DNA from: Rikenellaceae bacterium
GTDB lineage: Bacteria > Bacteroidota > Bacteroidia > Bacteroidales > Rikenellaceae
Assembly (NCBI GenBank): GCA_017936385.1
Contig: JAGBFQ010000023.1
Span: 62,001 to 126,000, forward strand
DNA length: 64,000 bases
Direction: 5' to 3'
Every line of letters begins with the position of its first letter. The stretch's first letter is position 1. The notes beneath the pieces are model-generated. The model worked only from the letters and a program-made list of their open reading frames with translations, was not told the DNA's origin and searched no databases. Of the stretch, positions 52,391 through 57,353 are shown piece after piece. Position numbers and translations under genes: made by a program.

Positions 52391-52476
52391 GCTCGGATGG
52401 TGGAATAGGTAGACACGCCGGACTTAAAATCCTGTGGGCAGAAATGCCCGTGCGGGTTCGATTCCCGCTCCGAGTA
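52391..52476 (+). tRNA. tRNA-Leu (anticodon TAA)
   Basis: 86 nt including the discriminator A; CCA is not encoded. The acceptor stem is GCTCGGA / TCCGAGT (first pair G-T). The D arm has GGTAGAC, the anticodon loop CTTAAAA gives TAA, the long variable arm is GTGGGCAGAAATGCCCG, and the T arm is GCGGGTTCGATTCCCGC. The anticodon stem CCGGA/TCCTG has one C-U mismatch. It is class II, as expected for leucine. Downstream terminator at 52479. Confidence 0.95.
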
Positions 52477-52478
52477 CA

Positions 52479-52623: not shown

Positions 52624-53946
52624 ATGAATATGCTCAAAAAAGTCACTAAAATAGCAATGTCGCTTGCACTCTCGGCTCTGATGTTGGTTGGGTGTAAGGC
52701 CGATGACGACATTATAATCACCTCGTTCTCGCTCGACGGTGCCGAGTACGTATGCTTCGAGCCGACACAGACCATCAAGGTAGGCTACAACAAGCAACGT
52801 ATCTCGAAAATCGAAGTCACTCAGTCGCCCGAGGGTTGGACCGTAACCAACCGCGACAACAAATATCTCGAAATCACCGCACCCAACACGACACATACCG
52901 ACATCGAGACTATCGAAGTGAAGGGTATTTCGCCCGAGGGCAACAGCAACTCGGACAAACTCAAAGTGCAGGTACTCGCTGCCGACAACCTTTCGACCAA
53001 GGGCGTGGCCAACTGCTACATTGCCCCGACCGAGGGACGTTTGGCATTCGACGGAACGGCCGTTGCAGGTAGCAACAAGGCGTTGGATTTCACCTCAGCC
53101 GAACTGCTGTGGTGCGCGCCCGAGGGCTGTGTCTATTCGGTACAGGTGCTCAATGGCAAGGTTTCGTTCTCGACCTCGGCAACATCCGGAAATGCAGTGA
53201 TAGCCGTACGTGACGCCAAAAAGAACATCCTTTGGAGCTGGCACATCTGGGTGGCCGACTACAATCCCGAAGAGAACATCATAGACGGAATGATGTCGCG
53301 CAACTTAGGTGCATCGGACCAAGTGGGCGACACCGAGTCGTCGGCATGGGCGGCAAGCGGACTCTATTACCAATGGGGACGCAAAGACCCGTTCGTGGGT
53401 GGCAAAAGCTACATGTCGACCGTCAACCAAAATATGTACAATGCCGACGGAGAGTGGGTCGGTGTGAAGTATCTGAAAACCGGCAAAACATACGGAACGG
53501 TAGATTACGCCATCAAGAACCCTTTGACGCTGCTCTATGGCATCGAGAGCACCGACTACGATTGGCACTTCGCCAAACGTGACAACACACTGTGGAGTGC
53601 TACCACCAAGAGCATGTACGACCCCTGCCCTGCCGGCTGGCGAGTTGCCGCCGAGAGTGCCTTTGCGGGAATTTCGATGGAGAGCGTCGAGGGTGAGTAC
53701 CTGCGTGGTTGGGAGGTTCGAATGGCCGATACGGTATCCTATTTCGCCGCCGCAGGTCGTCGCAGTTTTGTAAGTGGTGAGTTGACCAATGTCGACGTGA
53801 CGGGCTATCTTCCCGTTGGTTTTGTGTGGAGCGCCTCGGCCAAAGCAACCAAAGCCGCAGCACTGGAATTCACCCCCACAACACTTGCTATGGGTGAGAT
53901 TTACAGAGCAAACGCCTGCCCGGTGAGATGTTGCAAAATCCAGTAA
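52624..53946 (+). CDS. FISUMP-like lipoprotein (third paralogue)
   Basis: 440 residues from the ATG at 52624. Signal peptide and lipobox end at Cys24 (SALMLVGC). Residues about 30-120 form a beta-rich N-terminal domain. The shared module then runs to the end: GVANCYIAP, WSWHIWVADYNP, MSRNLGA, YYQWGRKDPFVGG, YDPCPAGWRVA and ACPVRCC. It lacks the BACON repeats of the paralogue at 28276. It has its own promoter and terminator and stands between tRNA-Leu and the PqqD/ABC operon, so it is not co-transcribed with that operon. Function unknown; surface location inferred. Confidence 0.82.
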   Translation: MNMLKKVTKIAMSLALSALMLVGCKADDDIIITSFSLDGAEYVCFEPTQTIKVGYNKQRISKIEVTQSPEGWTVTNRDNKYLEITAPNTTHTDIETIEVKGISPEGNSNSDKLKVQVLAADNLSTKGVANCYIAPTEGRLAFDGTAVAGSNKALDFTSAELLWCAPEGCVYSVQVLNGKVSFSTSATSGNAVIAVRDAKKNILWSWHIWVADYNPEENIIDGMMSRNLGASDQVGDTESSAWAASGLYYQWGRKDPFVGGKSYMSTVNQNMYNADGEWVGVKYLKTGKTYGTVDYAIKNPLTLLYGIESTDYDWHFAKRDNTLWSATTKSMYDPCPAGWRVAAESAFAGISMESVEGEYLRGWEVRMADTVSYFAAAGRRSFVSGELTNVDVTGYLPVGFVWSASAKATKAAALEFTPTTLAMGEIYRANACPVRCCKIQ

Positions 53947-53968
53947 GATTACATTCAACAAGACATGC

Positions 53969-54004
53969 GCGGCAGTCACCCTCTCTTTTCGGGTCGACTG
54001 CCGC
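53969..54004 (+). terminator. Terminator of the FISUMP-like lipoprotein gene
   Basis: The stem GCGGCAGTC / GACTGCCGC with an 18-nt loop is followed by ACTTTTTTC. It separates the lipoprotein gene from the next operon. Confidence 0.8.
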
Positions 54005-54026
54005 ACTTTTTTCTCAAAAAAAACAC

Positions 54027-54034
54027 TACCTTTG
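54027..54034 (+). promoter_or_regulatory. -7 box (TACCTTTG) of the PqqD/ABC/HprK/S26 operon
   Basis: A perfect consensus 30 bp before the PqqD-like ATG and after the lipoprotein terminator, so the four genes form an independent operon. Confidence 0.75.
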
Positions 54035-54064
54035 TCAAATGATTGAATAAAACTAATAAACACC

Positions 54065-54334
54065 ATGAAAATAGAGAGCAAATTCAAAGTACGCGAAATA
54101 GCCGGCGAGAAAATCATCATCCTGCAAGGAACCTACGGCTCGGACATGACAAAAATCATCTCACTCAACGACTCGGCCGAGTTGCTTTTCAACGAGCTTT
54201 CGGGACGCGACTTCGAGATGGAGGACGCCGCCAAAGTACTCACCGACAACTACGATGTAGAACCACAAGTGGCACTTGCCGATGCCACCAAATGGGTTGA
54301 TTCACTGACCGAGTGCGGTGTAATCGTACGATAA
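54065..54334 (+). CDS. PqqD-like protein (RiPP recognition element candidate)
   Basis: 89 residues. Three N-terminal beta-strands (FKVREIAGEKIIILQG, DMTKIISLNDSAELLFNEL) and a helical winged-helix half (MEDAAKVLTDNYDVEP, ALADATKWVDSLTECGVIV) match the PqqD fold that binds leader peptides of ribosomally made, modified peptides. Stand-alone PqqD-like proteins also occur in kinase and exporter clusters of unknown product. First gene of a four-gene operon. No precursor-like small ORF was seen between promoter and this gene. Confidence 0.8.
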   Translation: MKIESKFKVREIAGEKIIILQGTYGSDMTKIISLNDSAELLFNELSGRDFEMEDAAKVLTDNYDVEPQVALADATKWVDSLTECGVIVR

Positions 54335-54343
54335 CTGCGAAGT

Positions 54344-54373
54344 CCCCACACTCCAAAGCCCCACACTCCAAAG
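54344..54373 (+). repeat. Perfect 15-bp tandem duplication before the ABC exporter gene
   Basis: CCCCACACTCCAAAG occurs twice in a row, ending one base before the ABC exporter ATG, in the 40-bp gap after the PqqD-like gene. Confidence 0.9.
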
Positions 54374-54374
54374 T

Positions 54375-56045
54375 ATGAAAAAAATCCTCGGGCTAATACC
54401 TCAATCGTTCCGTCGTCGCGGAATCGGAGTACTACTGTCGATACTCGTACAGGCGTTGCTCGATTTCGTGGGGTTGGCCGTGCTGTTGCCCGTAATCATC
54501 CTGGTTGCCGACCCGAATGCCATCAGTACAAACCGATGGCTGGGTGAGTTGTGGGCCTGGGGCGGCTTTACTGATGGACGCACATTCACGTTAGCCGTGT
54601 GCGGCGCCGTGGTGGGAGTGATTGCCATCAAGGGTGGTCTGGGCATGTGGCTGTGGAGGGGCCAGAACCGATATATCATGGGGCTTTATCGCCACTACTC
54701 CGAAAGGCTTTTTGCCCACTACCACAACAACGGCCTGCTCTTTATCAAGGGACACAACAGCGCAAAACTTGCTCACGAAATAAACTTCGTATGCTTGGCC
54801 TTTGTGGTAAATGTACTGATGACCGCCGCCGTGCTGGCAACCAACGTAATACTGATGACGCTGATGATTGTGGCTCTGATGGTCTACAACGTCAAGGTGG
54901 CAGGTCTGTTGATTGCAATTTTGGTTCCCATCGTGGCGCTCTACTTCCACTTTGTGAGGGGACGTATCGGAGAGTTCGGCCGCAAGGAGAACGAAATACG
55001 CCGAAGTCAAAACCGTCTGGTGGTTGAGTCGTTGGTGGGTTATTCCGAAATCGAGGTGGCAGGCATGTTCCCCGAGATGGAGCGACGTTTCGACCAAGGA
55101 ATACGCGAAATTGCCGACATGCGACTTCAAATCGGTACACTTTCACAGGTGCCAAACATAATTCTCGACCTGTGTATCGCCGTTGCGTTGGCGGTGTTGG
55201 TTACATTCCGTGCCGACGCCGTGGCCTTTGGAATTTTTGCCGTGGCAGCAGTCAAGATTCTGCCCACGGCCAAAAGTATCGTGGGACGATGGATAACCCT
55301 GCGCAACAATCTCTACACGGCCGACATTGTGGCTCTGACGACGGATGCACAACCCGCAACAGCAAAAGTGAGCGAACAAAGAATCTCTTTCAAGCAGGAA
55401 ATCCGTCTGGAGGATGTATCGTTCCGCTTCCCGGATGGTGACCAAGAGGTTTTGGAAAACATCTCTTTGAGGGTACGCAAAGGCGAAACCATTGGCATTA
55501 AGGGTGTGTCGGGCGGCGGAAAGACCACGCTGTTTAACATCCTGCTCGGATTCTACCCCCCCACCAAGGGACAAATCACGGTCGACAATGTGGCTCTGAC
55601 GACCGACAACCTACGCAAATGGCACAACATCGTGGGCTACGTTCCACAAAACGTGTTTGTCATGGATAGCACCATCGCCGAAAACGTAGCTATGGGCGAC
55701 CCCACAGCCGACCGCGAGCAAATCAAAGACGCATTGCAAAGAGCCAGCCTTTGGGAGTTTGTGGAGTCACTTCCCGAGGGCATCGACACACACATCGGAG
55801 AGGCCGGTTGCCGACTATCGGGTGGACAAAAACAGCGCTTGGGAATTGCTCGAGCATTGTATAAACGCGCCGAAGTATTGTTCTTCGACGAGGCGACATC
55901 GGCTCTCGACTCCGACACCGAACGCGAAATCACACGCTCCATCGAGGAGCTGTCCCACAATCAGGGAGAACTTACAATATTCATCATCGCCCACCGCGAA
56001 ACGTCGCTCATCTTCTGCGACCGAGTGGTGGAACTCAACGGTTGA
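54375..56045 (+). CDS. ABC exporter, fused permease and ATPase
   Basis: 556 residues. Six TM helices fill about 1-310 (VLLSILVQALLDFVGLAVLL, TAAVLATNVILMTLMIVALM). The nucleotide-binding domain at about 335-556 has Walker A GVSGGGKTTLFNILLG, the signature CRLSGGQKQRLGIARALY, Walker B EVLFFDEATSALDS and the switch histidine in FIIAHRETSLI. There is no N-terminal C39 peptidase domain, so leader removal would need another protease such as the S26 protein encoded downstream. Exporters of this type move peptides, lipids or lipid-linked sugars; context suggests a peptide-related substrate (inference). Confidence 0.9.
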   Translation: MKKILGLIPQSFRRRGIGVLLSILVQALLDFVGLAVLLPVIILVADPNAISTNRWLGELWAWGGFTDGRTFTLAVCGAVVGVIAIKGGLGMWLWRGQNRYIMGLYRHYSERLFAHYHNNGLLFIKGHNSAKLAHEINFVCLAFVVNVLMTAAVLATNVILMTLMIVALMVYNVKVAGLLIAILVPIVALYFHFVRGRIGEFGRKENEIRRSQNRLVVESLVGYSEIEVAGMFPEMERRFDQGIREIADMRLQIGTLSQVPNIILDLCIAVALAVLVTFRADAVAFGIFAVAAVKILPTAKSIVGRWITLRNNLYTADIVALTTDAQPATAKVSEQRISFKQEIRLEDVSFRFPDGDQEVLENISLRVRKGETIGIKGVSGGGKTTLFNILLGFYPPTKGQITVDNVALTTDNLRKWHNIVGYVPQNVFVMDSTIAENVAMGDPTADREQIKDALQRASLWEFVESLPEGIDTHIGEAGCRLSGGQKQRLGIARALYKRAEVLFFDEATSALDSDTEREITRSIEELSHNQGELTIFIIAHRETSLIFCDRVVELNG

Positions 56046-56047
56046 CT

Positions 56048-56923
56048 ATGACTGCATACTACAAAATAGCAGAGCTGACCTTGCAGCTCACAGGAGAGAG
56101 TGCCGAACTCAACAGTTTGGACGGTTTCAAACCCTTCCGCATTGAACAATACGAAGGCACGGCCGACGCCACCATTTGTCTTGACTCAACGCTCGAAGAG
56201 TGCGACTTCGACTCGGCGGAGTGGATTTACTCGTCGGGCGAGGATGGCGTAAATTATGAATTCGGACGCCACGCCGAAGGTTTCTGTTGCCGCATAACCT
56301 CTACCCAAGGGGGCACGCTCAAACTATGGCATCGAACCGACAGCCGCACAATGTGGTGCAATGCTGACCATGTGAGCCAGGTCAACCCCTACGAGCTGCG
56401 TTTCCTGTTATGGATAGCCTATGGTCTGGCAGCCCTGCCGCACGGAGCAGTAGCCGTCCACACCTCGGTAATCATGCAAGGTGGCAAAGCCTATATGTTT
56501 CTGGGCGAAAGCGGAACGGGCAAAAGCACACACACTCGTCTGTGGCGCGAGAACATCGAAGGGGCTGAACTGCTCAATGACGACTCACCGATTCTGCGCA
56601 TAGCAGATGGACGTCCCGTAGTCTACGGCTCTCCGTGGAGTGGCAAAACCCCTTGTTACAAACCGTTGTGTGTACCCCTTGGGGGCGTAACACGTCTGAG
56701 TCAAGCACCGCACAACCGCATGCGAAAACTCAATCGAATCGAGGCTCTCGGCGCACTCCTACCCTCATGCCCTCCCAACTTCGCCTACGACGAGAAGTTA
56801 ACCGACCGCATGTGCGAAATCCTCGGCACGGTAATCCGCACAACTCCCGTTTATCACTTGGAGTGTCTGCCCGACAGTGCAGCTGCCGAGTTATCATTTA
56901 ACACATTGAAAGATGTCCAATAA
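56048..56923 (+). CDS. HPr-kinase-like P-loop protein
   Basis: 291 residues from the ATG at 56048, 2 bp after the exporter stop. The N-terminal half (about 1-130) is unassigned. The C-terminal half has a P-loop FLGESGTGKSTHTRLW near 152, an acidic motif LLNDDSPILRIADGRPVVYG and SPWSGKTPCYKP, as in HprK-related kinases that accompany lasso-peptide clusters and PqqD-like proteins. It lacks the full HPr kinase/phosphorylase architecture and no HPr gene is near, so the target is probably a peptide or sugar rather than HPr (inference). Overlaps the S26 gene by 11 bp. Confidence 0.8.
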   Translation: MTAYYKIAELTLQLTGESAELNSLDGFKPFRIEQYEGTADATICLDSTLEECDFDSAEWIYSSGEDGVNYEFGRHAEGFCCRITSTQGGTLKLWHRTDSRTMWCNADHVSQVNPYELRFLLWIAYGLAALPHGAVAVHTSVIMQGGKAYMFLGESGTGKSTHTRLWRENIEGAELLNDDSPILRIADGRPVVYGSPWSGKTPCYKPLCVPLGGVTRLSQAPHNRMRKLNRIEALGALLPSCPPNFAYDEKLTDRMCEILGTVIRTTPVYHLECLPDSAAAELSFNTLKDVQ

Positions 56924-57353
56924 GCGCACAATGCCCAATGGCACGATGTTCGGGTTGGCCGCCGAGGAGTTGAAGGCAGGTCGCGCAGTTCGCATCAACG
57001 TCATGGGACGTAGCATGCGACCCTTATTCCGCAGTGGACAGACCATCGAGCTTAAACCCATTCAGCCCGAAGCCCTATTTGTGGGAAGTGTCATCATGGC
57101 ACGTATTGCACCCGAGCGTTATGCCGTACATCGCATATTGGAAATCGACGGCGAGCACATCACCATGATGGGCGACGGAAATATCGTTGGCAAGGAGAGA
57201 GTTCACAGCACAGATATTTTCGGCTATGTGGAGTGTACGGAACGTCATCTCCGCTGGGCTCGCCTATGGCGACGCCTACTCCCCCTGCGCCGCTACCTGC
57301 TTGCTGTGGATAGAGTATTATGTTCACTGGGGCATCCCCAAGAACATAACTAA
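56913..57353 (+). CDS. S26/S24-family signal peptidase-like protein
   Basis: 146 residues. The nucleophile motif [20 protein letters not shown] is at about 28-47, with the serine in GRSMRP. A second catalytic motif, [13 protein letters not shown] near 70, is followed by [11 protein letters not shown]. Histidine stands where bacterial type I signal peptidases have lysine, as in SipW/ER-type enzymes. There is no N-terminal TM helix; a basic hydrophobic C-terminus ([17 protein letters not shown]) may anchor it. Last gene of the operon; its stop codon overlaps the convergent lepA stop. Confidence 0.8.

Follow-up and report, generated by a model that had tools for sequence, protein, structure and literature searches.

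A four-gene operon of a Rikenellaceae bacterium resembling the LPP peptide machinery and its scattered candidate precursors

We analysed a stretch of 64,000 nucleotides from a Rikenellaceae bacterium (G000:C5:62001-126000 of the source genome, which is 1.84 Mb in size and 90.5% complete), referred to here as the window. An operon of four genes in the window encodes proteins that correspond in kind to the RRE (recognition element of ribosomally synthesized and post-translationally modified peptides, RiPPs), the exporter, the kinase and the peptidase of LPP (linear polyphosphorylated peptides), a peptide system described in Bacillota in May 2026 (Popov et al. 2026, PMC13381572), and that probably act in trans on eight peptides encoded at scattered sites of the same genome, each before a predicted lipoprotein gene.

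The operon and its candidate substrate peptides

The first gene of the operon (54065-54334; all four genes lie on the + strand) encodes a PqqD-family discrete RRE of 89 aa, which is LppB-like and predicted to bind leader peptides. It is followed by the genes for an MsbA-like ABC exporter without a C39 peptidase domain (54375-56045, 556 aa, LppD-like), for an LppK-like protein of the HprK/PEPCK fold, predicted to be a peptide serine kinase (56048-56923, 291 aa), and for a SipW/Sec11-type S26 peptidase, LppS-like and predicted to be the leader peptidase (56913-57353, with an alternative start at 56931). The gap between the PqqD and ABC genes is 40 bp and that between the ABC and HprK genes 2 bp, and the HprK and S26 genes overlap by 11 bp; the block and its junctions are as the original prediction had described them.

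The PqqD-like protein scored 41.2 bits against PF05402 (PqqD, cut-off 23.4), its nearest folds are discrete lasso B1 proteins, and all 13 sequences compared have its residues N35 and D73. The ABC protein scored 114.4 bits with ABC_tran, no C39 peptidase was found among its domain matches, and its top NCBIfam match was MsbA, with 275.4 bits under the model cut-off of 602. The earlier description of an 89-residue PqqD-like protein and a C39-less exporter was thus borne out. A Pfam search with the HprK-like protein gave nothing above cut-off, and PF27840, the label that many kinase relatives bear in protein databases, was unreported by Pfam for the window protein, P0014 and P0087. The S26 protein stayed below cut-off both with Peptidase_S24 (18.2 bits, cut-off 23.3) and with sigpep_I_arch (32.8 bits, cut-off 51.85); its profile matched SEC11A (7p2p) at E 2.6e-7, Ser34 and His73 were kept in all 12 sequences aligned, and no N-terminal membrane helix was seen when the sequence was read by eye. 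Since the curated models for the kinase, S24 and signal peptidase I missed these proteins or scored them below cut-off, naming at the family level is loose.

At least 594 kinase relatives turned up among 596 candidate stretches, and the best 80 loci were taken which, with the window, make the 81 loci analysed below; among the nearest relatives listed, two carry names, both Rikenellaceae. Genes were called by our own codon-usage script over 110 sources. The kinase was left uncalled in 5 of the 81 tabulated loci, and because the script fails in some loci the arrangement counts obtained from clustering the gene calls are approximate. Clustering gave a group of about 40-aa open reading frames (ORFs) in 15 loci and a group of about 370-aa proteins in 19 of the 110 sources, the tested member of which matches PF14907 (NTP_transf_5). 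A conserved small ORF or a nucleotidyltransferase, which the original prediction had proposed to look for in homologous blocks, were both found.

Searched with a profile of the 40-aa ORF cluster, 18 of the 80 fetched loci gave 21 peptide matches, of which 19 are distinct because the loci L008 and L013 overlap, and two further peptides were found in the Rikenellaceae loci L121 and L123. The first alignment, A1, comprised 19 peptides of 33-56 aa, namely 17 of the 21 locus matches and the peptides of L121 and L123; the L013 duplicate and the L014 copy of the L008 peptides, as well as two ORFs running into masked bases, were left out. (From the kinase alignment, A5, one row was omitted because a stop codon appeared at its coordinates.) In all 19 peptides of A1 the residues Y, P, E, G and S are invariant. 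The A1 profile, which contained no peptide of the window's own genome, matched ten places in that genome. Eight of them, one being located at G000:C31:64590-64724, had E values of 9e-10 to 0.002 and are ORFs of 39-61 aa, and the two weak ones (E 0.29 and 2.3) were discounted. Adding the eight peptides gave alignment A2 of 27 rows, in which the same five residues are invariant in 27 of 27; the pattern YxxPx(8-9)ExG(F/Y/M)xxS fits every peptide, and the sixth position is V or I in 24.

All eight matches in the genome (E up to 0.01) lie outside the window, the nearest at C5:59828-59989, about 2 kb to its left, in agreement with the earlier statement that no precursor is visible beside the operon. 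A motif scan of the ORFs of 20-110 aa in the window returned 8 matches, which were judged chance-like by eye. No family of Pfam or NCBIfam covered the 27 peptides. At chance level, one of the 27 matched the paeninodin family of lasso peptides (E 0.12), and a second match (E 0.11) was to adenylate kinase. In twelve peptide pairs the ratio of nonsynonymous to synonymous differences per site (pN/pS) was 0.14-0.49, the pairs having been picked for identity >60% and synonymous sites being near saturation in some; the peptides therefore evolve under protein-level constraint. An estimate of 0.05 expected peptides in L002-L081 was given no weight, as it assumed a mean genome size and the profile came partly from those loci.

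Co-occurrence with the kinase and pairing with lipoprotein genes

An S26 gene lies at most 2.5 kb downstream of the kinase gene in 75 of the 81 loci, and the operon arrangement is therefore not due to chance. Iterated profiles found S26 anywhere in the locus in 77 of the 81 loci; the corresponding numbers are 63 for the ABC protein and 46 for PqqD. The homologues thus do occur together in other genomes, a point on which the original prediction had made its case depend.

The presence of the kinase (E up to 0.001) and of the peptide (E up to 0.01) was scored in 150 Rikenellaceae genomes. The kinase was found in 79 and the peptide in 80 of them, both in 77 and neither in 68 (Fisher 3e-36, uncorrected for kinship; three of the genomes, G000, G002 and G019, are themselves represented in the peptide profile). 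Incompleteness of metagenome-assembled genomes limits such counts. Each of the 77 both-positive genomes has 1-23 peptide matches, with a median of 6. Within the genus of the window's genome, G000, G044, G052 and G058 have the kinase, one PqqD, and 8, 6, 3 and 3 peptides, respectively, and the seven other listed genomes have neither kinase nor PqqD nor peptides (Fisher 0.003). Five of these seven show an empty operon site, with lepA, ubiA and pdxB in a row and no more than about 0.4 kb separating ubiA from pdxB; in G052 it is these two genes that the operon lies between. For the remaining two, pdxB was not in the fetched stretches. The genus therefore offers natural control genomes, with and without the unit. 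Among 295 genomes of Bacteroidales, the peptide was found in 12, the kinase (E up to 1e-10) in 41 and both in 8 (Fisher 2e-5), three of the eight being Rikenellaceae. No PqqD other than that of the window was found in the source genome, and the lasso B2 protease PF13471 had 0 matches there at E up to 1; any RRE of the PqqD family which binds YxxP leaders in this cell would therefore be the window protein.

These distributions bear on an alternative in which the S26 protein works as an ordinary signal peptidase and the kinase as a regulatory enzyme of the HPr type, the two being neighbours of the RRE and the exporter by accident. The failure of the curated kinase, S24 and signal peptidase I models is what such a view would have in its favour. 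We consider it very improbable, given how regularly the kinase and S26 genes adjoin, that no membrane helix is visible in the S26 sequence, and that kinase, PqqD and peptides are jointly present or jointly absent within the genus.

Downstream of each of the eight peptide genes of the window's genome, after 4-49 bp and on the same strand, comes a gene for a protein that starts with a signal of the lipoprotein type (seven called by the lipobox pattern, that of L140 by eye). From 20 further genomes we took the best listed peptide of each, irrespective of its context. Nineteen of the 20 fit the motif pattern, which missed L208; having been selected by motif, the 19 are uninformative on motif conservation. 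By an automatic rule, 16 of those 19 precede a lipoprotein gene, compared with 5 of 50 window genes called lipoprotein (Fisher 8e-9), a contrast that is somewhat flattered because the rule allowed for several starts in the peptide group and for one in the window genes. The rule missed L201 and L207, which have early alternative starts. By eye, a lipoprotein gene follows the peptide in 19 of the 20 genomes, and the exception, L199, sits just after a lipoprotein-like gene.

At E 0.01, Pfam recognised nothing in seven of the eight partner lipoproteins of the window's genome; the eighth has a BspA-type leucine-rich repeat (LRR). Elsewhere, the partner in L121 matches Mfa_like_1 and PCMD and that in L201 matches DUF4979 below cut-off, while Pfam gave no match for those in L123, L041 and L208. 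In the window's genome, the second gene downstream of one peptide gene (L136:2673-6257, - strand) encodes a 1195-aa protein with matches to Mfa-like, BspA-LRR, BACON and IgA-peptidase M64 families. The neighbours of the peptides suggest a surface role, and the downstream lipoproteins are a concrete clue to the function of LPP.

The position of the peptides directly 5' of lipoprotein genes is also that of leader ORFs, and one could suppose that they are regulatory leaders of those genes, unrelated to the operon, which would then modify or export a protein or a glycan-related product, such as a surface polysaccharide or the FISUMP lipoprotein encoded directly upstream of it in the window. A gene cluster, c23, that adjoins some relatives (L008, L013, L014), its L008 member matching Wzz, would agree with this. 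We nevertheless hold it to be unlikely, because the peptides carry the RRE-type YxxP and the invariant E, G and S in 27 of 27, are under protein-level constraint, share a locus with the kinase in 18 of 80 cases, and are accompanied by the kinase in 77 of the 80 peptide-bearing Rikenellaceae genomes.

The FISUMP lipoprotein gene itself ends at 53946, and an intrinsic-terminator-like hairpin with a T-run (53969-54012, + strand) lies between it and the operon. The fold of 53955-54020 has -25 kcal/mol (z -6.15, 200 shuffles) and TTTTTT comes after the hairpin, which is not listed by our simple terminator scan since that allows 3-8 nt loops only. With such a strong hairpin and T-run behind the FISUMP gene, the operon probably begins a separate unit. 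Different genes stand 5' of PqqD in the three other genomes of the genus that have the operon, and lepA and ubiA adjoin the block in all four. The genome profile search (E up to 0.01) gave no peptide match before the FISUMP gene. Four lipoproteins encoded after peptide genes are homologous to its product (E 7e-37 to 2e-23), as is one that lacks a peptide. Given the terminator and the other genes at that place in the sister genomes, the FISUMP lipoprotein was rejected as a member or substrate of the operon. The original prediction had named it as a possible substrate of a peptide or protein modification-export unit; what stands of that interpretation is the unit itself, with substrates likely encoded elsewhere, namely the eight peptides.

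A single promoter had also been proposed, and this was not confirmed, as a sigma-70 scan of the operon was uninformative, giving sites no more numerous than in shuffles. A sequence resembling the consensus TAnnTTTG occurs at 54027-54034. An 84-aa Cys-rich lipoprotein encoded before PqqD in L002 was discarded as a precursor because it is missing at that place in L112, L113 and the window. A tRNA-Leu (taa) gene is located at 52391-52477, upstream of the FISUMP lipoprotein gene.

Comparison with LPP and other known systems

In the LPP paper, the core set of this system is given as a SipW-like peptidase, a discrete RRE, an HprK-like kinase, an NTP (nucleoside triphosphate) transferase and an MsbA-like exporter, with one to three precursors per cluster of 35-200 aa and the consensus YxxPxVLxHQxIxFETxxS (PMC13381572). 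LppS cleaves after T-1, aided by LppB, whose residues N33, D70 and F74 hold the YxxP leader; LppK adds phosphate to Ser3 of the core; deleting lppN made no difference in the heterologous host; and the system is stated there to be restricted to Bacillota and its roles to be unknown. Another paper likewise gives YxxP as the lasso-type RRE motif (PMC12710340).

The window has four of the LPP components, namely the discrete PqqD-fold RRE, the HprK-like kinase, the SipW-like S26 peptidase and the MsbA-like exporter, no cyclase is present in the operon, and the peptides share the YxxPxV leader and a conserved Ser past the predicted cleavage region. The spacing of Ser34 and His73 in the window S26 protein, 39, is that of S29/H68 in LppS. 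In an alignment read by eye, N33, D70 and F74 of LppB align with N35, D73 and W77 of the window protein. The invariant Gly of the peptides aligns with T-1 of LppA, both being residue 16 when the Tyr is counted as 1, ungapped. The original case for a new system has to be given up to this extent, since a pathway with such proteins has already been described, albeit in Bacillota.

The chemical steps that we infer, in their order, would then be as follows. The PqqD-like RRE would take up the YxxP leader as an additional strand; the HprK-like kinase would phosphorylate the GFxxS motif at its invariant Ser; the S26 peptidase would cleave the peptide, its leader presented by the RRE, at the invariant Gly or beside it; and the MsbA-like ABC protein would export the phosphorylated acidic core, with one enzyme set serving all peptides of the cell. 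What the sequences show is the gene set, the folds, the invariant motifs, the co-occurrence across genomes and the lipoprotein pairing; the chemistry and a functional meaning of the pairing are inferences from them.

Several differences and exceptions weigh against this reading. Beyond YxxPxV, the leader of our peptides has VExG where that of LPP has HQxIxFET, the distance from the Tyr to the Ser is greater by one residue, so that the Ser would be at core position 4 and not 3, and the window operon is without an NTP transferase. The sequence match of LppB (9x8z chain) with the window PqqD is marginal (E 0.063), and LppK and LppS were likened to the window proteins from their description. (The fold listings, with entries to April 2026, did not have LppB 9x8z among them, which we did not count against the likeness.) The kinase occurs without the peptide in 2 of the 150 Rikenellaceae genomes (G051 and G078) and the peptide without the kinase in 3 (G030, 54% complete; G110, 59%; G149, 89%); a PqqD is present in G149, G051 and G078, and none was seen in G030 and G110, the incomplete ones. 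The link is looser at the level of the order, where 33 genomes carry the kinase without an A2-type peptide and 4 the peptide without the kinase.

Further differences from LPP are that the host belongs to Bacteroidota and not to Bacillota, that the operon has no precursor and 8 precursors are dispersed in the genome, and that each of these is followed by a lipoprotein gene. Two PF14907 NTP_transf_5 genes are present in the genome, outside the window, beside genes that look by eye to be for sugar nucleotides; they are consistent with a scattered LppN and are not evidence of one.

A lasso or other cyclised RiPP pathway with a cyclase encoded elsewhere in the genome was also weighed. The fold of the PqqD protein, nearest to discrete lasso B1, and the weak match of one peptide to the paeninodin family point in this direction, and phosphorylated lasso peptides of the paeninodin type, as presented in PMC13381572, likewise combine an RRE, an HprK-like kinase, an exporter and a [Y/W]xxP leader. 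They differ in that the window's genome has no B2 and its operon no cyclase, that an S26 peptidase stands instead, and that the leader has YxxP, not WxxP. An Asn-synthetase-like cyclase is not among the four operon proteins, no genome-wide cyclase search having been made. We give this pathway little chance, as there is no B2 (PF13471) in the genome and the S26 protein would replace B2, as it does in LPP. A standard lasso cluster was rejected on the zero PF13471 matches at E up to 1, as the original prediction had held.

HprK-like proteins are also found in the HPr-rel-A and SynChlorMet (ScmC) systems, which have a PqqD-like partner too. The window protein scored 20.7 bits against TIGR04352 (cut-off 200) and 23.3 bits against TIGR04249 of ScmC (cut-off 125), and membership of either was rejected, including the HPr-rel-A link drawn earlier. 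Of the hidden Markov model searches that had been recommended, that for PqqD scored over its cut-off, and those for the S26 models and, by far, TIGR04352 scored under theirs.

The occurrence of LPP-type machinery in Bacteroidales, together with candidate substrates, suggests that the class is wider than Bacillota. Among the papers listed in a PubMed Central literature search, which did not extend to preprints, no report of LPP in Bacteroidota was found, and in the matched passages of a survey of Bacteroidales RiPP clusters PqqD appears only in the reference list and no HprK-type kinase is mentioned (PMC10352776). Judged from sequence and from the LPP paper, what appears to be new here is the Bacteroidota host, the dispersed precursors, the lipoprotein pairing and the operon without an NTP transferase, the LPP gene kinds and the leader motif being known. 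Mining around the enzymes would miss these precursors in the window's genome, all of which lie outside the window.

One enzyme set acting in trans on many scattered precursors would be an unusual architecture for RiPPs. We tentatively put forward, as a possibility that we rate below even chances, that in Rikenellaceae and related Bacteroidales one RRE-kinase-peptidase-exporter set acts as a hub, making phosphorylated surface or secreted cores from peptides encoded throughout the genome (up to 23 gene matches), and that each core serves the lipoprotein encoded just downstream as its dedicated partner, whether as ligand, anchor, stalk subunit or regulator. LPPs would then be the peptide halves of two-component surface structures and not antibiotics.

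Variants of the block in related loci

In four Rikenellaceae genomes (G084, G090, G115 and G148) the ABC-kinase-S26 block has no adjacent PqqD, and a single PqqD is found on another contig; that of G090 carries an in-frame stop. Lone PqqD genes far from the ABC-kinase-S26 block were seen in three Rikenellaceae loci (L180:1501-1767, L182:1501-1767 and L184:1522-1767), and about 480-560 bp downstream of them comes a gene with a start of the carboxypeptidase-like/TonB-receptor type, named by eye. In Alistipes-named loci (L004, L016, L020, L036 and similar ones) the ABC-kinase-S26 genes are often flanked by helicase/nuclease genes (c3, c0) and on the other side by ispF-like (c1) or ribosomal-protein/elongation-factor-like genes, again named by eye, a housekeeping neighbourhood that is unusual for a RiPP set. 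In Bacteroides oleiciplenus (L008:2517-12187 and L013), two ABC-kinase blocks are located close to Wzz-like genes and have peptides nearby, and one more peptide ORF of this species runs into masked bases. Finally, a Prevotellaceae locus (L072:46-3924) encodes a 46-aa Cys-rich peptide with an FEKPxMEV start, a radical SAM protein (PF04055, 73.7 bits), two HprK-like proteins and two PqqD proteins, and this cluster is possibly a radical-SAM relative of the window-type system.

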